A stretch of 64,000 bases of DNA, from positions 1,922,001-1,986,000 of the forward strand of contig CAKKNE010000001.1 in assembly GCA_918797485.1 (NCBI GenBank), read 5' to 3'. This DNA is from Pelagomonas calceolata. Lineage: Eukaryota > Sar > Pelagophyceae > Pelagomonadales > Pelagomonadaceae. This document shows, in pieces, positions 270 through 63,894 of this stretch. A program made the translations under genes and the position numbers. The notes below the pieces were generated by a model. The model was given only the letters and a program-made list of their open reading frames with translations, did not search any database and was not told the DNA's origin. Numbering within the stretch: the stretch's first letter is position 1; every line of letters begins with the position of its first letter.

Positions 270-299
270 GCTTGCGCTAGTGTGTCACAGGACGCTAGC
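270..299 (+). promoter_or_regulatory. Dispersed upstream word, copy 1
   Basis: Reads GCTTGCGCTAGTG, then TGTCACAGGACGCTAGC. It is a slightly diverged copy of the window-wide 28-bp word (read here on the reverse strand of the consensus), with the flanking CTAG boxes conserved. It lies 155 nt upstream of the minus-strand start at 115 and 212 nt upstream of the plus-strand start at 512. The rest of 116-511 holds no convincing gene. Confidence 0.6.
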
Positions 300-511
300 T
301 TCGCGGCCTGGGCTAACCTTTTTGCGGGCTGTATCGCGGCAAACCAGGTCGCGTTTCACTGTCAGCGCTGCTTCGACACTCCTACGGTGCCACCTGAACG
401 CGCCGGACGAGCGCTGTACGCCACAGGAGAGCTCGCAGCCCCAATTCACCTCTCAGCCAAAACCAGTCCATTGCAAGGCGGGGATACGCTCACAAACTAA
501 AAAAGGAAAAA

Positions 512-1195
512 ATGCCCCGCGTCGCGAGAATACGAGTCCCAATCTACCAGGAGACGGGCAAGCACACCCTGTACCGAATAGAAGTGACGACGGACGACGG
601 CCGAACTAGAAAGGTAGAGCGCCGCTACAGAGACGTACTAAGGTTCCACGGCACGCTCTGTAGGGCCGCCCCGCACCCGAAACTGGAACAATTCGACTTC
701 CCGCACAAGAGCATATTAAACACGAACGCGGAGTTCACGAAGGAACGAAGGAGATCAGGCTTCGAAGCGTACTTCGCCCTGCTGTTGTCGCTGGGCCCGA
801 ACTACGCGCCCTTCGTCGAGACCTTCCTCAAGGCCGACGAGCGGGCTTTAGATGATTCGGGCCACTCGCGGCCGGCGACACCAACACCTGTTGCAGCACA
901 ACCGGCGGTCGTCTTCGACGACGACGAGGACGACGACGACAGTACCATCGCCATCCAGCAACCACCACTAGTTCTAGAAAAGCCGCGGTCGCTGACGCAC
1001 TGGGCGCTGTGCTTCTACCTACCGGTGGCCTTAGTGACCTACGCGCACTGCTGCGTCCTCACGTTGTTAGGAGCTCTCCACACAGAGGACTGGTCGAAGG
1101 GCCAGGCCTGGCTCGCCGTCCTATCGGCGCCGCTCGTGCTCTGTGTGGCTTTGGCATTACTGGCGCCGGCCGTCGACGACTCCGAGGAGTACTAA
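512..1195 (+). CDS. PX-domain protein with C-terminal membrane segments
   Basis: The 227-residue product starts with a PX-type phosphoinositide-binding domain at about residues 5-115. Visible are the beta-strand opening, the RRYRDVLRFH segment typical of the PX core, the basic FPHKS loop and the helical EAYFALLLSLG segment. A Ser/Pro linker and an acidic run (DDDEDDDD) follow, then two hydrophobic segments near residues 163-187 and 195-217. Family knowledge suggests recruitment to endosomal or vacuolar membranes; the two predicted spans would anchor it there. Its stop codon lies 5 nt from that of the convergent gene at 1201, so the 3' ends must overlap. I cannot assign an ortholog. Confidence 0.7.
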   Translation: MPRVARIRVPIYQETGKHTLYRIEVTTDDGRTRKVERRYRDVLRFHGTLCRAAPHPKLEQFDFPHKSILNTNAEFTKERRRSGFEAYFALLLSLGPNYAPFVETFLKADERALDDSGHSRPATPTPVAAQPAVVFDDDEDDDDSTIAIQQPPLVLEKPRSLTHWALCFYLPVALVTYAHCCVLTLLGALHTEDWSKGQAWLAVLSAPLVLCVALALLAPAVDDSEEY

Positions 1196-1200
1196 TGTAG

Positions 1201-1941
1201 TTAATCCCACGATTCTCTAGACGCTTTGACCCGATCGAAGGCGGAAAACCGCCGCGCGTCGCCAGCGTGGACCATCGAATCGATCTCCCGCGGGTCCTTC
1301 TCGACAAAGTGCCGCCGCGTCTCCGTCACGAAGCGGTTGTCCTCGCCCAAGGCGATGGCGTCGGCGACGTTGTGCGACCGGAAGAGGTCCTGCCTCGTTC
1401 TAGAAGCCGGTGGCCGGTGGCCCGTGCCGTGATTCTTGTGCGCGTCGCGCATTTGCGTCACGAAGCGATCTTCTTCGCTGTCGGATCTAAAAATGCGCGT
1501 GTGGAACTGGAGGTCCTTGGACGTGAGGCGCATCTGGGGCGTCACGCACGTCGGGCCCGCGCGCCCGGAAGGTTGTCTATGCTTCGGCCGCGCGCCGTGC
1601 GCTCGCAACGTCTCCGCGTAATTCCTATCAGTCGTCGACGTCAGCGCTTTCTCGGTCACATGCGGTGCAATAGACGACCGCTGCAGCATCTCCGTGCTCA
1701 GCGTCGGCTTCTCCGCGTTCCTCGAGACAACAGGAGCGTCGAACGCCGCTTGCGACTGTGACTTATAGTCCCTGGGCGCCCACTCGGGGTGCTGCGCGAA
1801 GGGCTCGTGGCGCTGCAAGGCCGCTGACTTCTTGATGCCCCGCGTTTCCTTGGGGAAGGCCTTGCGCAGGCCCGCCCTTGGCACCGGTGGGGCCGGTGTC
1901 GGGGCATTCGCCTGCTTGAGGACGTCGCCGAGCGACGGCAT
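1201..1941 (-). CDS. Unidentified basic protein with two RFVT repeats
   Basis: The start is taken at the ATG at 1941 (MPSLGDVLKQANAP); upstream codons in this frame are low-complexity and run into the leader of the divergent gene. The 246-residue product is hydrophilic, rich in Arg, His and Thr, and has no signal peptide or membrane span. Two related segments near the C-terminus, RFVTQMRDAH and RFVTETRRHF, suggest a short internal duplication. Extended proteins with repeated Arg/Thr motifs are common among ciliary microtubule inner proteins, but this is only a suggestion. It is convergent with the PX gene. Confidence 0.55.
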   Translation of the reverse strand: MPSLGDVLKQANAPTPAPPVPRAGLRKAFPKETRGIKKSAALQRHEPFAQHPEWAPRDYKSQSQAAFDAPVVSRNAEKPTLSTEMLQRSSIAPHVTEKALTSTTDRNYAETLRAHGARPKHRQPSGRAGPTCVTPQMRLTSKDLQFHTRIFRSDSEEDRFVTQMRDAHKNHGTGHRPPASRTRQDLFRSHNVADAIALGEDNRFVTETRRHFVEKDPREIDSMVHAGDARRFSAFDRVKASRESWD

Positions 1942-3303: not shown

Positions 3304-3336
3304 ATTCACAGACCAGTAACTTAGACAACAATAATA

Positions 3337-5653: not shown

Positions 5654-8475
5654 ATGGGCGTCTCGAAGTTCCACGCCTGGCTGGTGGAACAATTCGGCAG
5701 CGCGGCCTCGGACGCGCGCGGGAGGGCCTTGGCGGCGGACCACGTGGTCGTGGACATGACCAGCGTCGTCCAGAGCGCGGCGCGGCGCTGCAAGAGCGGG
5801 CGAGAAGCTGTGAAGCGGGTCGTCGGTAGGGTGGAAAGCATCTTTACGTCCTCGAAGACGGCGACGACGCACTCGGTCTGTCGGGCGCGCACGTCCGTGG
5901 GCTTCTTCCTCGACGGGCCGCTGCCGCGAGCGAAGGTCGTTACGGTACGGCAGAGACGGTTGAAGGCCAAGGATGGGGTCCGCGCCGACGGGCTCGTCAC
6001 GGAACGGGGTGCAAGACGGCCGTCGCCGAACCGCATCCCGCCCTTCGACGTCCTCGAGATCTCGCCGGGCACGGATTTTAGCGAGCGGCTCGCGGAGGCG
6101 CTCGGGCAGTGGGCCGAGAAGAGAACAAGACGGAACGCGGCCGCGCGCCAGGGCTTCGACGAGGTCGTCGTGTCCGACGCGAGCGTGCCGGGCGACGGCG
6201 AGGTCAAGTGCGTCGAGTACCTAGATGCCTGTGCGAGAGAAGCCGCGAGGAGCGGCGACCCGCGGCCGCGCGACGTTGTTTTGTATGGAGGCGACGTGGA
6301 TCTCGTCGTCATGGCGCTGTGTCGAGCCCAGCCGGGCCCGGGGCCCGTCTTCGGCCCGCACGTCCGGTCGATCTTAGTGCTGTCGGACGCCGGGCGCGTT
6401 TTGGATGTAGGCGCTTTGGCCGATGCGCTATGTGCGCGCGTCGCGAGGAAGAACGACGAGGAGGACCCGACGCTTGAACGAAGGCAGGTCGCTTTGGATT
6501 TTGCGACGCTCGCCGTCGCGGCCGGCGGCAACGACTACTTACCTCCACTCAGTGTAGCATCGCATGCGTTGTGGGACGCCTACAAGGCCCAGGACCGAGC
6601 GTTGTACGACGAAACGTCTGGAAAAGTGGATCTAGAAGTCCTCGGCAGTCTACTGGAGGACCGGCATGTACCCGCGTCGCGCGATCTCGGCACCGCGGCC
6701 CTGGTTTCGGCCCAAACTTGGACACGATCTCCGAGGGATACCCTCGACCGTATTGAGAAAGAAACACATCACTCCGACCACGACACACCAGAAATTGAAG
6801 GGCGCCTGAACGTTGATTTCCACACAGGCACGACGCCGCGACGATCGACGAGAAGAGGCGACGCGTCGCGGAGGACGCTCGGAGTCATACTCGCACGAAA
6901 GACGGGCGGCCGGCGGCGCCTCGGGCGTTAGAACTAGCTTTGCTGCGGAAAGCAGATAGGGTTGGCGTGCGGGTCTTGGCGCCGCGCGACTTCGGGGCCG
7001 TTACTTCTGGTGCAGCTACTTTGTTATACAGAGTGGAGTGGCGGCCCGTGCCCGTCCAGCCGCGCGATTCCGATGATTCAATACCTCGTAGAAGAACGCC
7101 GCCGCCAGTCAGTACGGCGCCTTGGCGCGTGGCCATCGGGGCTGATGGTTCGAGGCTGAATCGCGTGGAGCTGAGGCACGTCGATCCGAGGGTGGAGATC
7201 CGGGCGCCGGCGGGCGGCGGGCCGCTGGAGGTGCGGTGTCGCGCGAGGAATCACATCGGGTGGGGCCGGGCGCGGACGACGCGACTGAAACGAGATCCGA
7301 GGTGGTGCGTACAACAGTGCCCCCAAGGGCAAAGGTGTACAAACCCCCAGTGCGTCCACGCCCATGAAATCCGACACCTGGCCGAGGAGTGGCCGAGAGC
7401 GGGCAGCGCGCGGCCTCCCCAAGCGAGCGGCGTCTGGGCTCAAAGAACCTTTTCTTCCGTACCACCGAAGGACGAGGAGAGCGATGCGGAGACTTTAGTA
7501 GGTAGTGATGATGAGGTCGTCGCCTGGGCGGAAGGCGAGTGGTTACAGACCCTCGAGTGGTGTGTTACGACGTACGCGCGAGGGCACTGTCGGGACTTTT
7601 CGAGGAGGTATGCTCGACCAGCAGCTCCACCCCCAGAAGCTCTGATTGGTTATTGTTCTTCCATGCGAGGGGTCGATCGAGATACTACTACTGATGAATA
7701 TGTACCCCCGCCGCCCCCTGCTGAATCGCTAGCTTGTTTATTACCTGGAAGAAGGGCAGCACACTTACTCCCATTAGTGTTGAGGCCTTTGTTTGAGGAC
7801 GGCTCGCCCGTCGCCGACGCGTGGCACGGCGCGGTGGCGGACGTGCCCTTAGATCGCATACTGGAAGCGGCGGCGGCTCTCAGAAGAGCAGCGCCGCCCG
7901 AACTCGACGCCGCGGCACCGTCGGCCTTCGGCGCCGTCGTGAGGTACCGGGCGTCGCCCTACACGGGTCTGGTGGACGTCGACGTCTGTCCCGCGGCGGA
8001 AGGCCGGCAGCACTACGACAGCATGCCGCCGCGCGGCGCGCCGCCGCCGCGCGGCGTCTTCTACGATCCGAACCAGGGCGGGCAGTACGTCGACCCGAGT
8101 CAAGCGTACATGGTGCCGCAGTACGCGCGGCACTACCCGGGCCACTACTACGCGGCGCCCATCCCGCTCGCGCCGATTCCCAGCGACGCGGGCTCGTCGG
8201 GGCCTCCCTCACCACCGTCGCCTCGACGAACTAGACGGCCGCGGCGCCGCGGGTCGCCGCGCGACTCGCCCGTCGCCGACGACGACGAGGCGGAGACGGC
8301 CGCGCCCACCACGGAAGCGTCGACGGCGAGCGTGCCGCCCCAAGCGCCGCGCGACCAGACGCGCTGCCGCTTCTTCTTTTCGGCCCGGGGCTGCAAACGG
8401 GGCGCGGGCTGCTGGTTCCTGCACTCGGACGAGGCCGCCGAGCCCGAGGCTGAGGACGAGTCGAAGCAAAAGTGA
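5654..8475 (+). CDS. XRN-family 5'-3' exoribonuclease with FN3-like and CCCH modules, two exons
   Basis: The N-terminus is a clear XRN nuclease: MGVSKFHAWLVEQF, VVVDMTSVV, FFLDGPLPRAKV, VPGDGEVKCVEYL, YGGDVDLVVMALC and the GGNDYLPPL loop, covering most acidic metal ligands (one Glu of the usual GEGEHK is Asp). A 152-nt intron at 6676-6827 joins this to the second frame for 889 residues in all. In exon 2, residues about 404-493 look like a fibronectin-III fold (LLYRVEW ... VRCRARNHIGWG), 500-520 is a CCCH-like finger, about 570-700 is the XRN helical region (LEWCVTTYARGHCRDF, YVPPPPPAESLACLLP), and 851-873 is a canonical C-x8-C-x5-C-x3-H finger. Expected role: RNA decay. Confidence 0.85.
6676..6827 (+). 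other. 152-nt intron of the XRN gene
   Basis: Begins GTCGCGCGATCTCGG and ends GTTGATTTCCACACAG. Splicing joins residues ending RHVPA to HDAATIDEKRR and corrects the frame. The last 16 nt match the reverse complement of the 5' end of the GT23-gene intron (GTGTGGAAATCAAC), so a related inverted-repeat end appears to supply the acceptor here. I did not find a matching repeat at the 5' end. The donor site is chosen by frame and homology, so a nearby alternative is possible. Confidence 0.65.
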
Positions 8476-10125: not shown

Positions 10126-10308
10126 CGAGCACGTGCGGAGCCGCCTTGTGCTTTATGTATGTATGTACAGGCTGCCCAAGCGACCTGTTGCAGCCGTTCC
10201 CGTGGGGGTCCGCGCGGCCGGACCTCGCCGCTGGTGCAAGCGCGCTGTGCCGCGCCCAAATCCTCCGGAACGCCGCAGTTGGGAGTTGGAAGCAATCTTG
10301 GGAGATTT

Positions 10309-10332
10309 CCTAGTGTCTTACCGGCAGCTAGC
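10309..10332 (+). promoter_or_regulatory. Dispersed upstream word, copy 2
   Basis: CCTAGTGTCTTACCGGCAGC followed by TAGC. It sits almost exactly midway between divergent starts at 10125 (183 nt away) and 10529 (196 nt away). The remainder of 10126-10528 holds nothing I can name. Confidence 0.7.
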
Positions 10333-10528
10333 TGATTATATGCCCGGTTTCGTTTTTTATCAAAATCCGAGCCCTTTTTGCTACTGGTGGCGCACTCTGG
10401 CAGCCATTACGGGACAGTGCTAGACCCATACTTATCGACGCCGCAACCTAAGCAGCGCGCAGCGGCACGGGACGGCAACAAATCCATAAAGCTTTACCCG
10501 GTCCCCGCATAGCAGGACGCCGCGCACC

Positions 10529-15937: not shown

Positions 15938-16753
15938 TCACCGGTCGCTGTCGAGCACGAGCTCATAAACCGGGACGCCCGCCTTTGCATACTTCCTCTC
16001 AAAAAGCGTCAGCGGATCATGCAAATCAGACAGTTCGTAGGGTCCTTTCGATACGAGGTCTGGCCTGATACCCAGCTCACCCGCCCTGCGACAAGCGAGG
16101 CGGAACTCCTCGAGGTACGTCCGCCACGACGCGCGCACCGTCAATTTGTGACCGCAGGCTTGTAACAGAGAAGGCAGGCTCGCGTGGCCCTGGAAGCGCA
16201 TTTTCAAGTGTTTATCTTTCGGGTACGGGTTGGGGTACAACAGATACGTCTCCTCCACCCTCAGATCGTTTGAATCGTTCAGGAGGCGCCAGAAGTCGCC
16301 CAGTTCCGCCCGGAGCAGCAATGCGTTGTCCGGCGCGTCGTTTGATTTTGAAAGGCGCGCCTCCGAGCGGTCGACCCCGATCACGGTTCTGTCCGGGTGG
16401 CGCGCGGAGAGCTTCAGCGTGCTGCGGCCCGTGCCGCAGCCCGCGTCGATGATGAGAGGCGCGGCTCGGCTTCTGGCGAACTCTGCTGCCGTTTGGAACG
16501 CTGCTCGTGTGTGCGCCGCGATTGGTCTTTTGTTAAGGTACGTCGCGTGCTGCGCGACGTGCCTTTCTACGAGTTGATGGACGGCCGCCTCGTCGACGTC
16601 GCGTTCCGGGATGGCGTAGATGCTGGACGCGTCGTCTGGGGCCGCGTGAAGTGCTGCTGCTCGCAGTGCACCTGTCTTGGCTCGCAGCAGCCTCCTCGCA
16701 CCGAGTGTTGCAGTTCTGCTGATCGAGAGCATCATGAGCAGTATGTAGAGCAT
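15938..16753 (-). CDS. TrmB-like tRNA (guanine-N7) methyltransferase
   Basis: 271 residues. The SAM-binding motif IIDAGCGTGRSTLKLA-like (IIDAGCGTGRSTLKL), the acidic VIGVDRSEARLSK strand and the family signature LLYPNPYPKDKHLKMRFQGH are all present, followed by LTVRASWRTYLEEF. These fit the TrmB/METTL1 family, which makes m7G46 in tRNA. The first 45 residues are hydrophobic then basic (MLYILLMMLSISRTATLGARR), suggesting organelle targeting. It could be a TrmB-like protein with another substrate. The dispersed upstream word lies 62 nt before the start. Confidence 0.8.
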   Translation of the reverse strand: MLYILLMMLSISRTATLGARRLLRAKTGALRAAALHAAPDDASSIYAIPERDVDEAAVHQLVERHVAQHATYLNKRPIAAHTRAAFQTAAEFARSRAAPLIIDAGCGTGRSTLKLSARHPDRTVIGVDRSEARLSKSNDAPDNALLLRAELGDFWRLLNDSNDLRVEETYLLYPNPYPKDKHLKMRFQGHASLPSLLQACGHKLTVRASWRTYLEEFRLACRRAGELGIRPDLVSKGPYELSDLHDPLTLFERKYAKAGVPVYELVLDSDR

Positions 16754-16815
16754 CGCTAAAAGTTCAGATATGCATTAATGGGGTCGGCAGCGCCCAAAAA
16801 CTCAGGCGAAGCCGC

Positions 16816-16843
16816 GCTAGCGGCATGTAAGACACTAGCAAGC
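16816..16843 (+). promoter_or_regulatory. Dispersed upstream word, copy 3
   Basis: GCTAGCGGCATGTAAGACAC then TAGCAAGC: a consensus copy. It lies 62 nt upstream of the TrmB-like gene start at 16753 and 100 nt beyond the end of the next minus-strand gene. Confidence 0.75.
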
Positions 16844-16942: not shown

Positions 16943-18778
16943 TTACACATTATCGTCTCTACTATCCTCTTCGTCCAGCTCGTCGACCCATCCCGCGCGA
17001 GCGTCGGGGAACGCGTCGCAGTAGGGTACGTACGGCTTGATATCCAAAACCGGCGTCCCATCCAACAGATCCAGGCCCTGGACGGTGAGCTCCAATTTTT
17101 CCTCGTCTACGTCTATCAATCGTAGCGCCGACAGCGAGATCGGCGACGGGCGGTGCGGCGCGCGTGTGGCAAAGACGCCGTGGCGCTCGTCGCCGCGCGG
17201 CGGCTTGATCTGGAACCGCCGCAATTTTCCAGTTTGCAGGTGCATGTGCGCGAGGACCCAGACGTAGTCGAAGCCGTCCAGCGACTTGAGCGACCCGCGG
17301 AACTCGGGATTCAGCGCGATCACGCCCAATTCGTCATTGCCAACGGTGGCCTGCCGCGGCGTCCCGTGGCGTTCGACGTAGGGCGACCGCACGACGCCGA
17401 TCGGCGCGTAGGACACGGAAGAAGGCGCCTCAAACCGTGTCGCGTAGTCGCGCAGCGGCGGCGTCGCGCCACCTCGAACACTTAACGACTTCAGGCACGC
17501 GGCCGCCGCGCGGCGGCCCGACGCGAGCGCGCCGTTCAGCGACGGGTCCGTGAGGTGGTCGCCGCAGACGTATATCGAGTCCGAGTACGCAGGCGAGCCC
17601 TCTAGATCAGGCTTGTCCAGCTGCTGTCGGGGCTGGGCGAAGGGTACGCGGTAGACACGCTCGAAGGTCCAGCTTCCGACGTTCGCGTCCGGAAACAATG
17701 TCGCGAGGTGGCTTCTCGCCGCGGCTTCCACGTCGTCAGGTACATCTGTGAGTGAGTCTATAATCGTCGCGGAGCAGAGCGCCCGGCCTTCTGGCGCGTA
17801 GGACGATTGCACGTTCGACGGGAAGCAGACGTTGTTCAGGGGACCGTCGTCTGGTATCAAGAGAATGATCGGCAGTTGTGTAGGCAGGTCCCTTGCATCG
17901 AGCGAGAAGTAGACGCACGTGGACGCGCGCACTTGGACCGGTTTTAGGTCCGGAAGGAGCTTTGGCAGAGCGGGCCCGTCGACCGCGACGACGACGCGGT
18001 CGAATTGGAGCGTCTCGCCGTTGACGTCGATAGAACCCTCACGGACGGCGTCGACCTTCGCATTCAATCGCACGTCCACGCTGGCGGCGAGCTGCTCCGC
18101 CACGGCGCCGATGCCGTCTTGTGGCAGCGACGTCGGCGCCGCGGAGAGCGCCCGGAAGGCCAACAACCACACTCGCGGATCCTGGTCTTCGAGCCTCGAC
18201 AGAAACACGCCGCGGAAGAACGGCTCGAAGAAGGCGTCCAAGAGGCGCGGACCGACGCCTACCTTATCCGAGAGGAAGTCCCGCGCATTGGTGGAGCTTT
18301 GCGTCCACGCACCATTCCTAATCCCCGCGGCGTCGAGCGCGAGGCAGCCCGTGCGCAGGGCGCCGGCGCGGAGCTTGTCGGCGAGCGAGCCCACGGGCGC
18401 GCGCAGCGACGGGAGGAGGTCCTGCGGCCGCCTTAACGGATCGCCGACAAATTGCCGCTCGCTGTCTCGACAGACGAGCGCACCGGGCTGGAAGGGCCGC
18501 AACCGCAGCGCGTCGTAGTCCAAAGCTTCTCGTGATTCTTCATAAGCCTCGAGGAACACCGCAAAACCTCTATCAAAGACGTAGCCGCGCTCGCGGTCGG
18601 ATCGTACGCGCCCGCCGACGCCGTCGGACGCCTCGAAGACCGTGACGTCGCAGTTAGGCTGCAGTTTTCGGGCGCAGTTGAGGCCGCTGACTCCTGCGCC
18701 CACTATGGCGACTTTTGGTCGCGCAGGTGTTATTGCTGCCACTGCTGCTATGAGGCACAGGTGCTGATGTGCAGGCAT
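16943..18778 (-). CDS. FAD amine-oxidase-like domain fused to TrmO/TsaA domain
   Basis: 611 residues in one frame. After a hydrophobic leader (LCLIAAVAAITPA), residues 20-440 are a flavin amine-oxidase/phytoene-desaturase-like domain: dinucleotide motif KVAIVGAGVSGLNCARKL, FEASDGVGGRVRSD, and the closing YVCGDHLTDPSLNGALASGRRA segment. From residue 457 the protein becomes a complete TsaA/TrmO domain: YAPIGVVRSPYVERHGTPRQ, ALNPEFRGSL, FDYVWVLAHMHL, FATRAPHRPSPISLSA and LDLLDGTPVLDIKPYVPY. TrmO methylates t6A37 of tRNA using SAM. The two halves have unrelated chemistry; the fusion may be real or a read-through between once-separate genes. Confidence 0.8.
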   Translation of the reverse strand: MPAHQHLCLIAAVAAITPARPKVAIVGAGVSGLNCARKLQPNCDVTVFEASDGVGGRVRSDRERGYVFDRGFAVFLEAYEESREALDYDALRLRPFQPGALVCRDSERQFVGDPLRRPQDLLPSLRAPVGSLADKLRAGALRTGCLALDAAGIRNGAWTQSSTNARDFLSDKVGVGPRLLDAFFEPFFRGVFLSRLEDQDPRVWLLAFRALSAAPTSLPQDGIGAVAEQLAASVDVRLNAKVDAVREGSIDVNGETLQFDRVVVAVDGPALPKLLPDLKPVQVRASTCVYFSLDARDLPTQLPIILLIPDDGPLNNVCFPSNVQSSYAPEGRALCSATIIDSLTDVPDDVEAAARSHLATLFPDANVGSWTFERVYRVPFAQPRQQLDKPDLEGSPAYSDSIYVCGDHLTDPSLNGALASGRRAAAACLKSLSVRGGATPPLRDYATRFEAPSSVSYAPIGVVRSPYVERHGTPRQATVGNDELGVIALNPEFRGSLKSLDGFDYVWVLAHMHLQTGKLRRFQIKPPRGDERHGVFATRAPHRPSPISLSALRLIDVDEEKLELTVQGLDLLDGTPVLDIKPYVPYCDAFPDARAGWVDELDEEDSRDDNV

Positions 18779-25042: not shown

Positions 25043-25178
25043 CGGTGGCGTGTGGGCTGCCCGATCGTCTTACGCGTGCGATTTCGCGGCCGCACGCTCT
25101 GTATGAGGCATTTTCTATGTGCTGCGTCTACCGGCAGCCATGCATACGGCAGAGGGCAGCCTCCGCGCAAGACTGTTT

Positions 25179-25204
25179 GCTAGCGGTGTATAGACACTAG
25201 CAGC
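25179..25204 (+). promoter_or_regulatory. Dispersed upstream word, copy 4
   Basis: GCTAGCGGTGTATAGACACT then AGCAGC. It differs from the consensus by a small deletion and two substitutions. It lies between divergent starts at 25042 (136 nt) and 25400 (195 nt). Confidence 0.65.
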
Positions 25205-33622: not shown

Positions 33623-33650
33623 GATTGCTAGTGTCTTACCGGCCGCTAGC
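33623..33650 (+). promoter_or_regulatory. Dispersed upstream word, copy 5
   Basis: GATTGCTAGTGTCTTACCGG then CCGCTAGC. It lies 106 nt upstream of the MUS81 start at 33757. Confidence 0.75.
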
Positions 33651-33756
33651 TCCAAAAATGCGCGCGCAAGCACTCACTCTGAGACACGACTCCCGCCGGA
33701 CGCTAGCGTGAGCCCAGCGCTGCCGTCCCGTCAGAGCCGCAGCATCGAACGTAGCC

Positions 33757-43445: not shown

Positions 43446-43490
43446 GCCCGCGCATAGACAATCGCCCCACCGTGCCGCGAGCGGCCTGCG

Positions 43491-43561
43491 GTCCAGTGCG
43501 GAGCCTTGCCTATAGGTTCCTAGCTCTAGTGTCCAGTGCGGAGCCTTGCCTAGGTTCCTAG
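43491..43561 (+). repeat. Two tandem copies of a 33-bp unit
   Basis: GTCCAGTGCGGAGCCTTGCC plus AGGTTCCTAG occurs at 43491-43523 and again at 43531-43561, 40 nt apart, differing by a small insertion (TAT). The second copy runs into upstream word copy 6. Confidence 0.8.
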
Positions 43562-43580
43562 TGTCTTACAGGCCGCTAGC
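43557..43580 (+). promoter_or_regulatory. Dispersed upstream word, copy 6
   Basis: CCTAGTGTCTTACAGGCCGC then TAGC. It is 111 nt upstream of the Cys-rich gene start at 43445, in the gap before the RP9 gene end. Confidence 0.75.
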
Positions 43581-43659
43581 GCGTTTTTAGATGGCTCTGC
43601 GCTGAGGGACCCATGCCTACGGGGTTATGTCAATCAACAAAAATAAATACAGTTACAGG

Positions 43660-44271: not shown

Positions 44272-44439
44272 TCCCCAGCGCTGCGAGTTGGCTGGGTGGA
44301 GTGCTGTGAGGCTAGCAGCCTCCCCTTCTGCTCACTGATCGCACCGCTGGCTCCGGTGCGTCTGAGGCAACGCAGGTGTGCCCAAGCCGCTCTAGCACGC
44401 CGCACAAATGCGCCACTGGGCTTACGGCCGCGCTCGATA

Positions 44440-44467
44440 GCTAGCGGCATGTAAGACACTAGCAAGC
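44440..44467 (+). promoter_or_regulatory. Dispersed upstream word, copy 7
   Basis: GCTAGCGGCATGTAAGACAC then TAGCAAGC: identical to copy 3. It lies between the divergent RP9 (44199, 240 nt) and G-patch (44674, 206 nt) starts. Confidence 0.8.
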
Positions 44468-49675: not shown

Positions 49676-50110
49676 CTAGATGTCCGGGTCCTCGGGGATC
49701 ACGAACTTCGCATCTCTCAATTCGGGCGACACCTTGATCTGGCAGCATAAACGACTGGTGTCTTCCAGCCCCCAGGCGAGATCGAGCATGTCCTCCTCCT
49801 CCTCGTCGGGGGGCTCCAGGGCGTCGTAGAGCTCCTGCTCGAGGATGACGTGGCACGTGGAGCACGCCAGCTCGCCGCCGCAGGCCGCCTCGATGTCGAC
49901 GTCGTGGTCGAGCGCCGCCTCCAGGACCGTCTTGCCGACCTCCGCTTCGACTTCTATGGTCTGGCCGTCGCGGCTGTCGACGAAGGCGAGGGGCACGGTC
50001 GCGTCGGCGAAGCGGCGCCTCGCGCTATGCTGCATTGTGAAGCGCTGCGCCGGCGCATGCGTGCGTCCCCGCGCCGCATCCGTGCGCAGCGCCCTCGCGG
50101 CGACACGCAT
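49676..50110 (-). CDS. Mitochondrial-type [2Fe-2S] ferredoxin (adrenodoxin-like)
   Basis: 144 residues. A basic presequence (MRVAARALRTDAARGRTHAP) precedes a ferredoxin fold with cluster ligands C77, C83, C86 (EAACGGELACSTCHVIL) and C122 or C123 (SRLCCQIKV). The acidic PPDEEEEDMLDLAWGLEDTS stretch is typical of adrenodoxin/Yah1/FDX2 proteins that feed electrons to Fe-S cluster assembly or P450s in mitochondria. The start is the ATG at 50110; the frame is open further upstream but runs through the upstream word and is not coding. Confidence 0.87.
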   Translation of the reverse strand: MRVAARALRTDAARGRTHAPAQRFTMQHSARRRFADATVPLAFVDSRDGQTIEVEAEVGKTVLEAALDHDVDIEAACGGELACSTCHVILEQELYDALEPPDEEEEDMLDLAWGLEDTSRLCCQIKVSPELRDAKFVIPEDPDI

Positions 50111-50273
50111 GACATTGTGGTGTGGCCTGACACGCTGCAGCGCGCTGGTGAGCGGTCGCGCCGCCTTTACTCGGTCTGGACCGAACCGGCGGCATAAATG
50201 CTTTGTCGTGAGCATTTTTGGAGTGCGGACGTAACGTGTACGCCGCGTTTGAAGGGCTCGCCACGATAAAGCT

Positions 50274-50301
50274 GCTAGCGGCCTGTAACACACTAGCAAG
50301 C
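50274..50301 (+). promoter_or_regulatory. Dispersed upstream word, copy 8
   Basis: GCTAGCGGCCTGTAACACAC then TAGCAAGC. It lies between the divergent ferredoxin (50110, 163 nt) and PH-GYF (50555, 253 nt) starts. Confidence 0.75.
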
Positions 50302-50554
50302 AAAAAAAAATCCTCGAGTTTTGCTGGTAATTGGCTAAGCGCTGCCTCTGAGCACCCACCGCTCGTCGCAGCACCTACGTGGCTTGCTGAGCCCAATCAC
50401 CAACGCGTCGCGAGGCCTTGTATGCGTACGCTTCGCCGTAGACGCAAGAGCGCCGAAGGCGCATAGCACCCGAACGCGGCCAAATTGCACCGCGCGTACG
50501 CCGTCGACGCGCGCGCGCGAAGACGCAAGGACACAGAAACAACAACAGCAACAA

Positions 50555-51691: not shown

Positions 51692-53439
51692 CTAGAGGTA
51701 GGCCGCCTGGACGCGGGACTTCTGGCGCCGCTTCGCTTTGATCTTGTCGCGGTCGCCGCCCTTGGCCTTCTTCGGCGGCGGCTTGCCGCCCTTGAAGCCG
51801 AGCGTCTTCAGAGGCGGCGGGTAGTCCGCGGCGCCGTAACGGTCCTTGTCGGCGGTCGACAGAAGCCAGGGCGTGTGGCACGACGGCGCTGGCACCTTCG
51901 CGAGTTCGGGGCACCAGAGCTTGACGTATTGACCGTCGGCGTCGTAGTCCTTGGACTGCTTGAGGATGTTGAAACGGTTGATCCGGCCGCCGCTGAGGCC
52001 CGCCGCGGCGTGCCAGTTGCCCCAGTTCGACTCCGGCGTGTAGTCGACGAGGAGCTCCTCGAAGTGCTCCGCGCCCAACCGCCAGTCGAGGCCGAGGTCG
52101 TGGACGAGGTAGGACGCGACGTTCTGGCGGCCGCGGTTCGACATGAAGCCCGTCGCCCGCAACTCCCTCATGTTCGCATCCACCAAAGGCGCGCCCGTCC
52201 GCCCCTCCTTCCATGCTCTCAAAGCATTACTATCGACGCGCCATTTTTGCGAGGAACCCTTGACGCCGTACGGGAAGAAGAGCTTCTCTCCATATTTGTG
52301 CGCGTAGTACACGAAGTAGTCGCGCCACGTCAATTCGAACTTGACCCAGTACGTGCTCTTGTTGGCCACTCTTTTCTGTTCATATTTCGCACATTCATGA
52401 GCGACGCGGCGCGGCGACAGGCAGCCCCGCGCGAGCCAGGGTGCGAACTTCGTGGAGTAGCCCTGGCCGACCATGCCTGTGTGTGTTCAGTGTCCACGTG
52501 ACGCCATCGTGGCGTCTGCGCCATTGCGTCGATGCGTCGTTGCGTCGATGGCGTCGATGGCGTACGGGAGCGACGCCATCGACGCGAGCTCCGCTCGTCG
52601 AAAGGACGCGGGCCGGCACCGTTGCGCGTGTCGAAGTAGGTCCGGAGGCGGTCCTCGTCCCAGACGTAGCGCTGGAGCCGTTCCAGCGCGGCGGCCTCGC
52701 CGCCCCGTGGGTCGAAGAAGTCGCCCCGCTTATCGACGGACGCGTCGCCGTAGCCCAGATCATTTAGAGAAGGGATCGCGTCGTCGAGACCGGAGCATGC
52801 AGGAGGCGCCGGCAGGTCCCGCGGCCGCGCGAAGCAGTCCGCTCGGACCGGCGTGTCACCCTTCTCGACGGACGTGCGCCAGGCCGTGAACTGGTCCTTG
52901 AAGGGGATATACGCTAAATCGTCGCGGTGGTAGAGCGTGCCGTCCCAGACTTTCGTGAGCGGCGCGATTTCTGACACGGCGGCTTCGTCTTTCTGTTCTT
53001 CCGAGCAGGCGGCCTCCGAGGAAATGATCGCGACATCATCGCCGAGCTCCTCACAAATATCGGCGAGGACCTGGCGCGGGCTGCCCCGGCGGACGACGAG
53101 GCCGGAGCCGAGGTCTTTTAGCGAGCCGCGCAGGTCCTCGAGGCTCTCCAACACGAACTTGGCCCGCCGCGCGCCCGTCTTTTGCGACGAGCCGAGGTCG
53201 CTCTTTGCCGAGGCGTCGAAGACCCGCGGGTCGAGGCAGAAGACCGGCAGCACCGGCGCGCCGCGCCTCGCGGCCTCGGCCAATAGAGCGTTGTCGTGCA
53301 CGCGCAGCTCGTCGCGGAGCCAGACGACCGTCGCCTTGCTCGCCATGGCGGACATTTTTCTTCCTCGGAGGAGCGAGTTCGGCGCGGCCAGCGAATGTGC
53401 GGTGCGTGCGAGTGCCAGTAGACTCGTCGCTCGACGCAT
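51692..53439 (-). CDS. CRY-DASH cryptochrome/photolyase, two exons
   Basis: Exon 1 (53439-52620) starts with a presequence (MRRATSLLALARTAHSLAAP) and the photolyase N-terminal domain (VVWLRDELRVHDNALLAEAA). Exon 2 (52476-51692) carries the FAD domain (YSTKFAPWLARGCLSPRRV, YWVKFELTWRDYFVYYAHKY, NRGRQNVASYLVHDLGLDWR, WGNWHAAAGLSGGRINRFNI). Splicing gives TRNGMVGQGYSTKF across the junction, the usual DASH wording. The protein is about 534 residues with a basic C-terminal tail. DASH proteins bind FAD and a pterin and repair UV lesions in single-stranded DNA or signal blue light, usually in organelles. Confidence 0.9.
52477..52619 (-). other. 143-nt intron of CRY-DASH with a perfect 13-bp hairpin
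   Basis: Begins GTGCCGGCCCGCGTCC and ends ACTGAACACACACAG on the minus strand; it interrupts a Gly codon. Inside, GCGTCGATGGCGT and its exact reverse complement ACGCCATCGACGC are separated by 9 nt, and three more partial copies follow. The same 10-mer TCGATGGCGT occurs in the ABC1-kinase intron. Confidence 0.85.
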
Positions 53440-53980
53440 TCGATGCAGTCAGCACCCTCTGTGGGTGCTCTCGGCGACTGTACGTGGAGATCGCGCGGAG
53501 TTGTTGCACGAGCGGTTGAGAGCAGTGAAGCGCGCACTCTTGCTGTGTCCTGCTCGTTCTACTTGCACCGCTGACGGGTAATGACTGCGAGAGCACTGAG
53601 TTGTTGCAAACCAACTCACTCATCAACGGAGGTGCACTAGAAGCCTTCAGCACAGCCCCAGGGAGTCCCTTGGCGTCGCGCTAGAGCTGCATGGAGTGAT
53701 GGAGCTTCGGAACTGAGGCCTAGTGTCTTACTGGAGCTAAGGATCATCCGCTTTAATTTTGCCGCGCCGCTGCGTTTTGCCTCTGCTCTCCGCGCACAAC
53801 CGCTGCATCGACCAGCTCTCTCGCGTATCGCACAGCGCAGCCAGCCGCTGCTTCATCACCGCGCTCACCGCGCGTCGCAGTTCCCGGCGCCGTCGAGAAT
53901 CGTTCTCGCAGCGCGCACCACTGTTTGCCGAGCGCGCACGGCCCACAAGCAGCCAAACGCCTCTCGCATCTACCGCAGCC
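53440..53980. other. 541-nt divergent region between CRY-DASH and HOP2
   Basis: No gene is supported. Upstream word copy 9 lies near the centre. GAGTTGTTGCA occurs twice (about 53500 and 53601) without further structure. Confidence 0.4.
53719..53740 (+). promoter_or_regulatory. Dispersed upstream word, copy 9
   Basis: CCTAGTGTCTTACTGGAGCT then AA; the GCTAGC end is eroded. It lies 279 nt from the CRY-DASH start (53439) and 240 nt from the HOP2 start (53981). Confidence 0.6.
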
Positions 53981-55684: not shown

Positions 55685-55686
55685 GG

Positions 55687-56508: not shown

Positions 56509-56536
56509 GCTTGCTAGTGTGTTACTGGCCGCTAGC
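56509..56536 (+). promoter_or_regulatory. Dispersed upstream word, copy 10
   Basis: GCTTGCTAGTGTGTTACTGG then CCGCTAGC: near consensus. It lies between the divergent FKBP (56319, 189 nt) and RPC6 (56764, 227 nt) starts. Confidence 0.8.
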
Positions 56537-56763
56537 TAGCGCGGCTGTGAACGCAGTGGAGAGCCCATTGCGGCGAAGAGCGGCCTGTGGCGTGCGCAGG
56601 AAGCGTTTCTGGCTCAGACGCGCTCAGCCGTTCGGTCGGCGTCAGGTCGCCGCGTCGCGAAACGCCCAGACGGTCGGGAGAGCGAGGTGCTTGCAGCGAA
56701 GTGCAAAGCGGTACGCCGTCGAAGCGGCGCTGCCGAAGCAAGTCAACGCAAGCGTAAACAACC

Positions 56764-57615: not shown

Positions 57616-57623
57616 CTTGTATG

Positions 57624-58679
57624 TTATGTTTTAATGACGTACTGTCTCAAAAAAGACGTCGCGGCGGGCACGCATCTCTCGGCCGTCCGCTCGGCGTCGA
57701 ACAGGAGGCCGTATTTGTCAAAATCCAGCACGGGAATTTTGAGGAACCTGGCGACAGGTAATAAAGGCCCGAGGAAGTTCTGCATCTCGACGTTGACGTC
57801 CGGTGCCAAGAAGGACACGTGGCACGGCGCGTCCGCGCCGGCGAAGGCGATCACGCCGCGCTGCGGCCACGTCGTTGGTGTTACACCAACAGCAATACTC
57901 TTCACGTCGCCGGGAAACCGCTCGCGGACAAATTTTAATGGGACCGCCCCATCGCCTTCGCTCGCGATAGCTAGGAAAGGGACATCCGGGACGGCGTCCC
58001 GGCCGAAGCCCGCGATGGCCACGGCGCCTTTCGCTTGAGGCACCTTCAGCGCCGTCGCAGCACCTGCAGAATGGCCGAGCGCGCCGATGGCGCCCGTCGC
58101 GCCCCGCCGCTTCGCGTGCTCCAGAGCCGCGACCACGATTTTATCACGGCTCGAGCCGCCGTCTTTGTCGGGCGTATAGCTTCCCGCTAGTGTCTCGTCA
58201 AAATCCGGCGCGATGGCCACGGCGCCCTCTCTTGCAAGCGCTTCGCCGAATTTTGAGAGGTCAAAACGCGTCCCCAGGAAGCCGTGTGCGACGACGACGA
58301 CAGGCGTGCCATCCTTCACCGTCGCGCCGGGCGCCTCCCTTACACCCGGGGCGTCCAGCGCAAAGGTCCGGGCGATGGCGTCGGGCGTCGGCAGTCCGAG
58401 GATCGTCTTCACGAGGCGGCCCGCCGAGATGCGGTACTTGTAGCTCGCTGGTGGCGCGTCGGCGCCGTCTGAGGGCAGCCAGACGCACGCCGGCACGCGC
58501 GCGCCGCACGGCAGGTCCAGAACGACGTCGTCGTACCCTATAACGGCTGCCGATGGGGCGGCATTGCTGGCGCCGGGCACTGCTGCCGCCGCGAGGCTGC
58601 CGGTGATGGCGTTGCGGCGCGAGAGCGGGGCGGAGAGGGCTGCTATCGTCGCCGGCAGCAGTAATATCATTGATTTCAT
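57624..58679 (-). CDS. Plastid-lumen-targeted alpha/beta-hydrolase (chlorophyllase/PAF-AH type)
   Basis: 351 residues. The N-terminus has a signal peptide (MKSMILLLPATIAALSAPLS) followed at once by a twin-arginine lumen signal (RRNAITGSLAAAAVPGASNA), the bipartite pattern of a complex plastid. The hydrolase core shows VVVVAHGFLGTRFDLS, IAPDFDETLAGSY and the nucleophile elbow GALGHSAGAATAL; a His near VNVEMQ or CHVSFL could complete the triad. The family includes chlorophyllase-like and platelet-activating-factor acetylhydrolase-like esterases. The substrate is not clear. Confidence 0.78.
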   Translation of the reverse strand: MKSMILLLPATIAALSAPLSRRNAITGSLAAAAVPGASNAAPSAAVIGYDDVVLDLPCGARVPACVWLPSDGADAPPASYKYRISAGRLVKTILGLPTPDAIARTFALDAPGVREAPGATVKDGTPVVVVAHGFLGTRFDLSKFGEALAREGAVAIAPDFDETLAGSYTPDKDGGSSRDKIVVAALEHAKRRGATGAIGALGHSAGAATALKVPQAKGAVAIAGFGRDAVPDVPFLAIASEGDGAVPLKFVRERFPGDVKSIAVGVTPTTWPQRGVIAFAGADAPCHVSFLAPDVNVEMQNFLGPLLPVARFLKIPVLDFDKYGLLFDAERTAERCVPAATSFLRQYVIKT

Positions 58680-58820
58680 TGTGGCAGGGGTGGCAGCGTG
58701 CAGGATGCAGCTGTTTGCACGCAGTTGTCTCGATACGAGCTGTAGCGATGCCGCTACAAATGTGTAGTACCAAAAAGGCTGCGAATAGCCGAAAAGCCGC
58801 AGACTCGACCCTCCAAAGGA

Positions 58821-58848
58821 GCTAGCGGCATGTAAGGCACTAGCAAGC
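58821..58848 (+). promoter_or_regulatory. Dispersed upstream word, copy 11
   Basis: GCTAGCGGCATGTAAGGCAC then TAGCAAGC, one substitution from copies 3 and 7. It is 141 nt from the hydrolase start (58679) and 158 nt from the F-box start (59007). Confidence 0.8.
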
Positions 58849-59006: not shown

Positions 59007-60104
59007 ATGCTGTCGTCCCTGCCTGAAGACGCGTTGTACCACATTCTGAAGTTTGTCGATGAAAACGACGACGCGCGCTGCGCGAGGATCAGCAAGAGCT
59101 GGACGAACTTGAGGCGAGCATGGGTCGTTTCTCGCTCAAGTTTTCCTGGCGGCGAAGGCGTTGGAAGGGCTGGGCAAAATGGAGTCCAAGCCGTGGCATT
59201 TTCCTGCGACGGCAAACTTCTCGCCATCGGCGCCGACGACTTTGCACTCAATCTCATGGTTCTCGATGCCGTGACCGGCGACCTGCGACGCACGTTCCCG
59301 CGGCCCCTTGGGACCTCATGCTTGGATTTTTCGCCGACCGACAGCACAGTGCTTGTGGCGGGCGGCAGTAGAGATCTCATTGCTTACAATACGGCAACTG
59401 GCAATTCGCGCGAGCTCTGGCGCGGATCAGAGGAACTTAGATGTGTCACATTTTCGCCAGCGGGATCTACTATTGCGTATTGCCGCACGCTTATAGTCGC
59501 GGTCATCGATATTGGAGGACCCGACCCCACGCGCGACCCCTTTGCTGTGCCAGCTCGTGTCCTACTCACGACCCATCCCGGCGGACCTAGAAGAATAGAG
59601 GGCATCGCGTTCTCACCGACGGGGTCTGTGCTTGCGGTGGGCGTCGGTACGAGGGTCAAGTGCTACGACGTCGCCTCTGGCCAAGTACGCTCCGAAATTG
59701 CGCATGGTGGTTATGGCATCTGGACCATTGCCTACTCGTCTCGCGAGATAATTGCGGTGGGTGGTCCTGACGGTAAGCTCGTGCTTTATGACGCATCAAA
59801 CGGCCGATTAATCCGTGAGATTAGCCCCGCTGGGAACGGGTTATGCTTTTCGCCGGATGGGTTGATGATTGCTTTTCGGAAACATGGGTTGACGGGTGCA
59901 GGGCGCGTGTTTTTTTACGATGCTGAGACTGGCGACCTGCGCTTCGTTATCTCGCGCAACTACGGTATTCATGGGCTTGGGGCCGTTAGGTTCAGCCCCG
60001 ACGGAAAGACTGTTGCGGTAGGAGACTACAAGGGCAGGGCCGCCCTCTACGACGCCACAACCGGCGACCTGCGACGCATGCGCCGCGCGCCGCCGGCAGC
60101 CTAG
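59007..60104 (+). CDS. F-box and WD40-type propeller protein
   Basis: 365 residues. An F-box opens the protein (LSSLPEDALYHILKFVDEND). Six or seven WD40-like blades follow, with weak WD dipeptides but clear strands (VQAVAFSCDGKLLAIGADDF, LRCVTFSPAGSTIAYCR, IEGIAFSPTGSVLAVGVGTR, LGAVRFSPDGKTVAVGDYKG). A substrate receptor of an SCF ubiquitin ligase is the expected role. Confidence 0.78.
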   Translation: MLSSLPEDALYHILKFVDENDDARCARISKSWTNLRRAWVVSRSSFPGGEGVGRAGQNGVQAVAFSCDGKLLAIGADDFALNLMVLDAVTGDLRRTFPRPLGTSCLDFSPTDSTVLVAGGSRDLIAYNTATGNSRELWRGSEELRCVTFSPAGSTIAYCRTLIVAVIDIGGPDPTRDPFAVPARVLLTTHPGGPRRIEGIAFSPTGSVLAVGVGTRVKCYDVASGQVRSEIAHGGYGIWTIAYSSREIIAVGGPDGKLVLYDASNGRLIREISPAGNGLCFSPDGLMIAFRKHGLTGAGRVFFYDAETGDLRFVISRNYGIHGLGAVRFSPDGKTVAVGDYKGRAALYDATTGDLRRMRRAPPAA

Positions 60105-60133
60105 GAGGTGTAATAATGTGATGACTTAATACC

Positions 60134-61639: not shown

Positions 61640-61660
61640 GCTAGCGTATTAACACTAGCA
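61640..61660 (+). promoter_or_regulatory. Dispersed upstream word, copy 12 (shortened)
   Basis: GCTAGCGTATTAACACTAGC then A. Both CTAG boxes are intact but the middle is about 5 nt shorter than the consensus. It lies 207 nt upstream of the HMG-CoA synthase start. Confidence 0.55.
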
Positions 61661-61673
61661 ATTAAAGAAGTTA

Positions 61674-63734
61674 TCACACAGGAAGGGGCCGTTCGAAGCG
61701 CAACGTGGACTTCGCCGAGGACGTCGGCAGATCGGCTTCAGCAACACCGTCTAGAACTCGGTACGTCTTCACAATCTCAAGGCCCTCAACGACTCGACGA
61801 CCGTCCTTCGCAAATGCCCGGCGGAAGCGCCGCTTGCAGCGAACGAGTCTGCTCACGCGTGCAGCACCACCTATCAGCCCACCGGCCGCAGCATCGACGC
61901 GGACTAACTCGTCGAAGCCGAAGCCCGCTTCTGATATCTCGCTGGTCCTCGAGACGACGGTTAGGGTCGCGTCGCCGTCGCGAAGAATGCTCGGCGCGCG
62001 AGGATCCCAACTGACGGCTCCTCTGCCGCCGGCGCCGCGCCGTTTTCCGAGCTCAAAGGCGCGGTCCAGCACGACACCTGCGACGTCACGGCCCTCGAAC
62101 CTGTACGTCGCGGCCGCTGCCGGCGCCACGAATCGCGTCTCGTACGTCTCCGCTCGTCCAGCGACAAATGGGGTCGTGCCGCCGCCCAGGGCGCGCCAGG
62201 CGCCCTCGGCAGCAGTTTGGTCCCCTTCAACAGCTGTAAGCACACGCTCACAGCGCCATTCACCGACGAGCGACGCCGGGTAGAGCACGTCGCCGGTCGC
62301 TGCTCCGACCGAGACGTCGAACGCGAAGGCGCAGTGTGGCACCCAAGCGAGTGCCGCAATGGCTGTTGAACAGCTTTGGCGCCGCGTCACCGCATCCGGC
62401 ACGGGCGCACCATCGTCCAACGGGACGCGAAACACGAGCCGCTCCACCTCCCAACCAAGAGCGACACACGCGCCGCCCGTCTCCGACCGCGCTCCGTCGG
62501 GCAGCGGCCACGCGTCCGAGACCAGAGAAAACCCGGCCTTCGTCAAACCCTCGCGCGCGGCCTCCGCGGCGCGCTCGGACCGCGTCTCGACCGCCAGGAC
62601 GCCGCCGGGCGCCAGAGCGCTACGAGCAGCATCCGCGACGTCGGGTGCGAGGATCCAGTCGAGGGCGCCCCTTGTATTGGGAGGAGTGGGATGCTGCACT
62701 GATATGGCCTCGAGCGGGCCCGGGTACTTCGCCGCCGCGGCCAGGATGGACCGGGCGTCGGTCGCGACGTAGGCGAGGTTGTCTCCGCAACTGTCGCGCT
62801 TTGCCCGCGCCGCGCACGCTTTTACGATGGACCGCGACGCGTCGACGCCGAGGACGTTTCGCGTTCTATCAGAGGCCCAGCCCCGCGCCGCAGCACCCAA
62901 GCCGCAGCCGAGGTCGAGCCGGAGCGGCCTCGTGTCATCGGCGAAGAGGTCGCTCAGCAATGGCGGCGCGGGGGGCATCGCGGGCGCGGTGCCCTCCCGG
63001 AAGTCGCGCCGCCGCTGGCGCCCGCGGTTCTCGTGGCCTGCGTGCAGGGAACCGTTCGCGTCGACGGCGTGGAGCTTGATGGTCGACGCGGAGCCCGCAC
63101 GCCAGAGCCAGAGCTGCGGTCGCGCGTCGTCGCGGCCGAGCCGCTCTATATATGAAACGAGGCGCGGCGGGGCGTCTTCGGGCAGCAGGCGCCCGGCGGC
63201 CGTGGCAGCGGCGGCAGTCGTTTCTTCACACACGCAACCAGCAGCAACAAGGCGCTCGTAGGCGTTGAGGACGATTCGTGCTGGTCCGCACCCGTCATCC
63301 GCGCCGTGGTCGAGGCACGCGTCCCGCGAGTCGTCCGGATAAATATCGTCGCCCGACACGTAGAGGCCGCCCGCGCTCCAGGTCTCCTCCACAAATCGGC
63401 GCGCGAGGTTTTGAAATAGCTCCTCATCAGAAACGCCGGCGCGGTGGAAATAGAACGCCGCGTCAGCTATACGTCGGCCCACGAGCTTCGCGTCGACCGC
63501 GACGTTTTGTGCTGCTGCTGCCGCGAGCTCCGCGATTTGCGCACGCGCGTCGCCCTCGCCGTCGTCCTCGGCCGTCGCGAGGGCTAACGCCGCCGCGGCC
63601 ATCCCGAGAACACCACTGCGATCCGTAGTCTTGCGCAGTCGCTGCGTGCGGCTGGCGTCTAGCAGCTTGCCGCGCGCCGAGAGGGCCGTGGCGGCTGCGA
63701 GCATCCATGCTGCGTGCAGTGTGTGGGATGGCAT
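61674..63734 (-). CDS. SAM methyltransferase fused to DUF6816-like lumenal domain, with internal targeting signal
   Basis: 686 residues from the ATG at 63734. The N-terminus looks targeted (MPSHTLHAAWMLAAATALSA; RSGVLGMAAAALALATA near 40-55). Residues about 270-445 are a class-I methyltransferase of the TrmB-like kind (LRLDLGCGLGAAARGWA, VLGVDASRSIVKACAARA, ISVQHPTPPNTRG). At 451-471 a second twin-arginine-like signal appears inside the protein (RRQSCSTAIAALAWVPHCAF), followed by a DUF6816-type domain (LVGEWRCERVLTAVEG, VVLDRAFELGK). The protein could be cut into two, with the C-terminal part going to the thylakoid lumen. The DUF assignment is moderate. Confidence 0.65.
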   Translation of the reverse strand: MPSHTLHAAWMLAAATALSARGKLLDASRTQRLRKTTDRSGVLGMAAAALALATAEDDGEGDARAQIAELAAAAAQNVAVDAKLVGRRIADAAFYFHRAGVSDEELFQNLARRFVEETWSAGGLYVSGDDIYPDDSRDACLDHGADDGCGPARIVLNAYERLVAAGCVCEETTAAAATAAGRLLPEDAPPRLVSYIERLGRDDARPQLWLWRAGSASTIKLHAVDANGSLHAGHENRGRQRRRDFREGTAPAMPPAPPLLSDLFADDTRPLRLDLGCGLGAAARGWASDRTRNVLGVDASRSIVKACAARAKRDSCGDNLAYVATDARSILAAAAKYPGPLEAISVQHPTPPNTRGALDWILAPDVADAARSALAPGGVLAVETRSERAAEAAREGLTKAGFSLVSDAWPLPDGARSETGGACVALGWEVERLVFRVPLDDGAPVPDAVTRRQSCSTAIAALAWVPHCAFAFDVSVGAATGDVLYPASLVGEWRCERVLTAVEGDQTAAEGAWRALGGGTTPFVAGRAETYETRFVAPAAAATYRFEGRDVAGVVLDRAFELGKRRGAGGRGAVSWDPRAPSILRDGDATLTVVSRTSEISEAGFGFDELVRVDAAAGGLIGGAARVSRLVRCKRRFRRAFAKDGRRVVEGLEIVKTYRVLDGVAEADLPTSSAKSTLRFERPLPV

Positions 63735-63812
63735 CCTAGCACAGGTCACTACGGCCCGTAGCGATGCGCATTGGTCAAACCACGCGACAGCGAGTTAACC
63801 GAGGCTGCTATC

Positions 63813-63834
63813 TCGTATCTTATCGGCAGCTAGC
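63813..63834 (+). promoter_or_regulatory. Dispersed upstream word, copy 13 (diverged)
   Basis: TCGTATCTTATCGGCAGCTA then GC. It keeps the TCTTA-CGGC-GCTAGC half with several changes in the other half. It is 79 nt upstream of the methyltransferase-DUF6816 gene. Confidence 0.5.
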
Positions 63835-63869
63835 GTGCTAGACACCGCTGCCAAGCGCCTTGAGCGTCT

Positions 63870-63894
63870 ACTAGCGTAGTCACATACTAGCAAG
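63870..63894 (+). promoter_or_regulatory. Dispersed upstream word, copy 14 (diverged)
   Basis: ACTAGCGTAGTCACATACTA then GCAAG, in the opposite orientation to copy 13 and 36 nt from it. The remaining sequence to 64000 has no ATG and may be the leader of a gene beyond the right edge. Confidence 0.5.

Follow-up and report, generated by a model that had tools for sequence, protein, structure and literature searches.

A paired-box word repeated in the promoter gaps of Pelagomonas calceolata, probably a binding site of a general promoter-organising factor

In yeast, the factors Abf1, Reb1 and Rap1 have sites in the promoter gaps of many unrelated genes, some of them common to divergent genes. In vertebrate promoters, ZNF143 (Staf) has a 29-base motif with 4,682 ChIP peaks; this motif is described as degenerate, with a TGGGA core, and a motif set that apparently includes it is reported to be enriched in bidirectional promoters (PMC11118474). 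Closer in phylogeny, the oomycete INR, FPR and DPEP are stramenopile elements of promoters without detected TATA boxes; they are 7–16 nt long, lie near the start site, are orientation-biased and occur in 7–18% of promoters (PMC3599244). For Pelagomonas calceolata itself, the genome report describes an RCC100 assembly of six nuclear contigs (32.4 Mb, 63% GC) plus a plastid and a mitochondrial contig, and a peak of intron lengths near 210 bp that corresponds to introner elements (PMC9481584). Our literature searches gave no match, either for the letters of the core sequence discussed below or for cis-regulatory elements of Pelagomonas.

Here we analyse a word that recurs in a stretch of 64,000 nucleotides of this genome (C1:1922001-1986000, 62.6% GC; hereafter the window), the whole genome being 32,445,274 bp in 8 contigs. 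Counts were made on a 164-kb sample, about 0.5% of the genome, composed of the window and ten 10-kb stretches picked by coordinate, two on each of five other large contigs (L039-L043, L047-L051), and genes were called with our own codon-usage-based models, which are approximate, carry no introns and assign 69.6% of the sample to coding sequence. Within the window, a consensus pattern at up to 3 mismatches matched 7 places against 0 in 100 shuffles, a fixed-spacing matrix at score 6 found 11 element matches, and a spacing-aware matrix, in which the two boxes of the element may shift, found 13 at score 10. A preliminary description of this DNA had reported 14 copies of a recurrent word, and 13 of these pass the spacing-aware model, the one at 61640 being degenerate and below threshold. 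Over the whole sample this matrix gave 29 matches, where order-3 shuffles lead one to expect 0.13 per 164 kb.

The copies in the window vary in strength and setting. At the centre of divergent gene pairs lie those at 10307..10333 (− strand, score 34.5; 196/195 bp), 44439..44465 (+, 45.2; 239/208 bp), 50273..50299 (+, 40.8; 237/255 bp) and 56511..56537 (−, 38.9; 191/226 bp), the third of which would fall within a GTG-started upstream extension of a 2Fe-2S gene (ORF 49676-50374). The copy at 274..300 (−, 30.0, canonical spacing) is 211 bp from the ATG of the + gene at 512; that at 16815..16841 (+, 42.8) is 61 bp upstream of the − gene 15938-16753; that at 33625..33651 (−, 41.2), an exact fit to the 24-mer, is 105 bp upstream of the + gene 33757; and that at 58820..58846 (+, 39.4) is 149 bp upstream of the − gene 57624-58670, with an ORF on its other side (59007-60104, +) that has WD40 matches and was dropped by the gene model. 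Tandem − genes surround the copy at 43555..43581 (−, 39.1), which is 605 bp from the predicted ATG and adjoins an imperfect local tandem duplication at 43480-43580. Four of the 13 matches are weak, at 13-17 bits: 25178..25203 (+, 16.0; 1-bp shorter spacing), in a divergent pair (135/196 bp); 53717..53742 (−, 15.9; poor left box), 238 bp upstream of the + gene 53981; 63809..63835 (−, 13.2), 104 bp upstream of the − gene 61674-63704; and 63869..63893 (+, 17.1; 2-bp shorter spacing), a second copy in the promoter that holds 63809. The degenerate copy, GCTAGCGTATTAACACTAGC, occupies 61640..61659 (+) and is sub-threshold at score 10. Of 17 proteins encoded near copies in the window, 13 gave Pfam matches, in a scan limited to copy-adjacent genes, and their functions are unrelated, including Rpc34, Hop2/TBPIP, ERCC4, photolyase, G-patch, 2Fe-2S and Methyltransf_4; one of the 13, an HMG-CoA synthase, adjoins the sub-threshold copy. 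Elsewhere in the window, at 16943-18778 (−), a single ORF fuses an amine oxidase domain with a TrmO-like tRNA methyltransferase domain.

The word is abundant throughout the genome. GTAAGACACTAGCAAGC at up to 2 mismatches occurs at 1113 + 1147 places, with none for the reversed-pattern control, and the 24-mer at up to 3 mismatches at 1041 + 1108, that is, 2,149 copies, again with none in the control. The strand counts of the 24-mer are balanced genome-wide; an excess of the + strand appears only among the matches listed, a listing that for the 24-mer omits the − copy at 33625, and those listed strands were left unused. Outside the window, the ten stretches hold 16 element matches per 100 kb, and from this density and that of the 164-kb sample we estimate a genomic total of about 5,200-5,700 copies.

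Across 50 distinct instances, mostly search-selected, the conserved core is sharp, 24-26 bp, and the flanks of different copies are unrelated. The core can be written A-GCTAGCG-(G/T)C(C/A)T-GTAAGACACTAGC-AA, and it is made up of a pair of CTAG boxes in inverted orientation, CTAGCG in one half and GTAAGACACTAGCAA in the other, which differ consistently from each other (CTAGCG versus CTAGTG). The reverse complement of its last nine columns is similar to its first nine (permutation p = 0.0004), and the AT fraction is 0.47 over the motif, about 0.41 at 25-100 bp and 0.33-0.37 beyond 200 bp. The initial picture of a 28-bp, partly palindromic word ending in AAGC was right about the inverted CTAG ends and too long; of the terminal letters, the AA is conserved and the next GC only weakly so in the same mostly search-selected set.

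The two boxes belong together. A scan of the 164 kb for the right box, which required no left box and used a matrix itself trained on whole elements, gave 27 matches, all 27 with a word resembling the left box at one of three adjacent spacings and 26 with the left box well matched. Genome-wide, CTAGC N{0,30} TAAGACACTAGC is found at 901 + 855 places and its control at none. Some element copies are spacing variants: among the matches listed, 97 counted of 100, the gap sizes are 6 (59), 5 (22), 4 (8), 2 (6), 7 (1) and 12 (1), and a gap of 3 has none. This dip was spotted post hoc and afterwards checked by two whole-genome counts, which gave 4 places with gap 3 against 56 with gap 2. In the gap-2 copies the base preceding G varies, mostly G or T and sometimes A, which makes it unlikely that these copies descend from one recent founder. 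With gaps of 2 and 4 allowed and one of 3 nearly absent, the geometry of a protein seems a likelier cause than neutral drift in length.

In our view the word is probably bound by a sequence-specific nuclear protein, either one alone or two as a fixed pair, with a general role in organising Pelagomonas promoters. Computation has established the absence of the word from predicted coding sequence, its centrality in divergent gaps, the pairing and discrete spacing of its boxes, a lack of significant orientation bias and its retention at orthologous sites. From these we infer that a protein may bind there and open chromatin or recruit polymerase, the same protein acting in both directions. The putative factor would contact two regions of its site in a rigid but not unique register; its binding would hold the promoter open, giving divergent pairs one promoter in common, and transcription would run outward from the element on one or both sides, towards start codons at a median distance of about 210 bp.

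The position of the copies relative to genes supports this reading. None of the 29 matches in the sample lies in predicted coding sequence (binomial p = 1e-15 given the coding share), with 6 of the 29 overlapping some ATG-started ORF of at least 150 aa that the codon model rejected. Avoidance of coding sequence is thus a firm result, and the earlier observation that no copy falls in a predicted coding region holds on the 164 kb. Matches are carried by 16 of 29 divergent gaps (13 of 29 have none), 7 of 30 tandem gaps and 0 of 25 convergent gaps; divergent and convergent gaps differ by gap count at p = 3e-6, in classes whose gap lengths differ. The densities per kb are 0.84 in divergent gaps, 0.42 in tandem gaps and 0 in convergent gaps, which total only 3.6 kb. 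After correction for length, the divergent excess over tandem gaps, 17 versus 7 matches, is not significant (p = 0.15, 164 kb), and in the short convergent gaps none was found where 2.2 were expected (P(0) = 0.10). The avoidance of convergent gaps is hence weak in this sample: their emptiness, which the preliminary description had asserted, is borne out by number of gaps and only weakly by length. That description had also named the circumstance that would count against it, copies as frequent inside genes or in convergent gaps as elsewhere; on the 164 kb, the avoidance of genes is strong and that of convergent gaps weak. Finally, of the 95 genes predicted in the sample, 37 have a copy within 500 bp upstream, where the preliminary description had spoken of 'about half the genes'.

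Such a location would also suit a core promoter element, initiator-like or a bidirectional initiator, placed directly at the start of transcription and not upstream as a factor site would be, and because TATA is nearly absent some other core signal is expected: on 81 promoter sides, the interval between element and ATG holds TATAAA 0 times and TATA[AT]A once. The same 81 sides reveal no clear core promoter signal at a fixed distance from the element. Several observations make the core-element explanation unlikely. Distances from copy to ATG are broad (93 values, mostly from search-selected loci: 10th percentile 103, quartiles 160/211/279, 90th percentile 473), a range for which the previously given 60-280 nt is roughly right. 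Copies in tandem gaps point opposite to the gene in 13 cases and the same way in 6, with no significant bias (p = 0.17), whereas the oomycete core elements show ratios of forward to reverse copies of 1.8-5.9 (PMC3599244). In addition, a single copy often sits midway between two genes.

Midway placement bears as well on the idea that the word works mainly in replication, as an origin, or in chromosome architecture, as an insulator, and lies in promoter gaps incidentally. This would be in keeping with the lack of matches in predicted coding sequence, with the lack of significant strand bias, with a frequency of about 1 per 6 kb (29 in 164 kb) and with an avoidance of convergent gaps that has no significance in the sample once length is considered. 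Against it, 64 distinct instances, mostly search-selected, comprise 33 in divergent gaps, 19 in tandem gaps, 12 at locus edges and none in convergent gaps; for the 52 that could be typed by gap, about 4.7 convergent ones are expected by hand calculation from the 164-kb length share (P ~0.008). Moreover, copies in divergent gaps are more central than chance (mean asymmetry 0.22 versus 0.5; KS p = 4e-6, n = 25), as the preliminary description had noticed for several pairs. The test used the 25 of 33 divergent pairs with less than 700 bp between starts, and the 8 longer pairs left out include that of L022, in which the copy overlaps with the predicted start of a gene. We regard a primary role in replication or chromosome architecture as improbable.

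A tiny mobile element, or the terminal repeats left over from one, tolerated only in promoters, was the other possibility raised at the outset. Thousands of highly identical copies with inverted ends (half-site similarity p = 0.0004) speak for it, as does an information content well in excess of what locating the sites requires: 36 bits over 24 columns (29 matches), minus 1.1 bits for spacing, against 13.5, the 36 bits being inflated since matches were chosen by score. For a factor site at this frequency the content is far above need and counts against the factor reading, and no other observation speaks as strongly as this surplus for copying, or for a site under a double constraint. We nevertheless judge the mobile element very unlikely, as the remaining evidence runs the other way. 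For target-site duplications of k = 2 to 10 in 57 flank pairs, exact matches and identity are near shuffled levels, without excess, the largest departure being one 4-bp match against 0.2 expected. The core is sharp, at 24-26 bp, between unrelated flanks; both boxes occur together in 27 of 27 cases; and a spacing of 3 is nearly absent although 2 and 4 occur.

A further argument comes from a related genome. The strict pattern matched three contigs of marine MAGs labelled bacterial. One stretch (L044) is 96% and 90% identical to C1:2154808-2156473, copy included, and another (L046), with further contigs of the same MAG, is colinear with P. calceolata at mostly 80-90% identity; on this similarity we read the latter contigs as a sister Pelagomonas contaminating a marine MAG. 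More generally, MAGs labelled Spirochaeta (MED672, ERR599032; L044, L046, L061-L065) contain Pelagomonas-like DNA, that of MED672 representing the sister lineage, and an element copy is also present near the end of L045, a contig of a 'proteobacterium' MAG.

Six fetched loci contain 11 sister copies, of which six, all first seen in the sister, were compared (left out were L062:4289, 5351 and 7633, L064:5362 and L065:2946). All six stand at the same promoters in P. calceolata, so that among these 6 of 11 no presence/absence difference at orthologous sites was seen. In five aligned promoters the core is identical at 105/115 positions versus 567/1000 in the 100-bp flanks, a flank figure that counts gaps as differences and includes one flank (0/100) that is an insertion in the sister. 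For the sixth copy (L063) the global alignment is poor (17/33); its partner in L071 has the same orientation and sits by the edge of the aligned block. Two copies occupy corresponding positions in the block C6:2669001-2678900 of each species, and the second copy has the same shortened spacing in both. In 2 of 6 pairs (L062/L068, L064/L069) a 1-bp indel lies inside the core, and the P. calceolata copy in L068, with a 1-bp insertion, is below the model threshold. The mobile-element claim is thus not supported, given the lack of a target-site duplication excess, the paired boxes, the near-excluded spacing and the two copies conserved in a syntenic block, whereas the reading as a bidirectional promoter or factor-binding element gains from placement, centrality and retention at sister promoters.

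Other repeats were encountered in these loci. A repeat of about 120-137 bp (L062:2050-2172), with about 40 copies in P. calceolata, adjoins a sister element, and is missing from that site in P. calceolata. L046:1432-1545, 2251-2400 and 5889-5998 are short stretches with many dispersed P. calceolata copies, perhaps of introner type.

That the word acts as an RNA hairpin in 5' untranslated regions, its inverted ends pairing, has almost no probability, considering the lack of significant orientation bias to the gene, the symmetric placement between divergent genes and the 0 Rfam families at gathering score in the window. Carriage by viruses was considered and rejected: the 20-base pattern and its shorter spacing each matched 0 viral contigs, and a relaxed pattern matched one, of 37% GC and with a hairpin-like context, which we took as chance.

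Returning to the promoter-organising factor, we tentatively put forward a more specific version, which we hold to be possible and somewhat short of an even chance. A lineage-specific pelagophyte factor would recognise the inverted CTAG boxes at a few distances from each other (16, 17, 18 or 14 bp box to box, hardly ever 15), serving more than one-third of genes with surplus information; it may derive from a transposase that used to bind these paired ends. If true, this paired-box factor would constitute a promoter system unlike the core elements so far described in stramenopiles. A 24-bp word at about 40% of sampled genes would offer a direct handle on gene regulation in Pelagomonas. It would also give access to the working of divergent promoters where the genome is compact, and to the reason for the near-constancy of so long a sequence at thousands of sites. 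As a stretch of DNA it can moreover be used to recognise Pelagomonas contigs in metagenomes, as happened here in MAGs labelled bacterial.

Two other words attracted attention between genes. The GC-rich GGGCTGCC/GGCAGCCC is common in upstream gaps (21 non-coding and 9 coding occurrences; 12 of 29 divergent, 4 of 30 tandem and 0 of 25 convergent gaps), both with and without the 24-bp element, at window positions 1999, 2278, 23021, 25054, 32001, 40068 and 53078 and also in L039-L051. ACGCCATCG (reverse CGATGGCGT) is enriched between genes, in divergent, tandem and convergent gaps alike (29 non-coding, 13 coding), at window positions 28623, 30202, 35766, 39469, 45461 and 52501-52573 and also in L040-L051.

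Set beside the known systems, the element shares with introner elements and MITEs the short length, high copy number and inverted ends, and differs from them in being 24-26 bp, in having 0 of 29 matches in predicted coding sequence and in showing no target-site duplication excess. Unlike the oomycete core elements, it is 24 nt long, lies about 210 bp from the ATG and has no significant orientation bias; the oomycete words YCAYTYY, MWTTTNC and SAASMMS each occur in 0 of 29 matches on either strand. Like the sites of yeast Abf1, Reb1 and Rap1, it sits in promoter gaps beside many unrelated genes, some of them divergent, and the yeast sites have other sequences and are shorter. The closest functional parallel we found is the ZNF143 site, whose role may be comparable. 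By sequence, a ZNF143 site is ruled out, with TGGGA in 0 of 29 matches, and the inverted CTAG pair with its discrete spacing sets the Pelagomonas element apart; what the two have in common is a very long site and, apparently, an association with bidirectional promoters.
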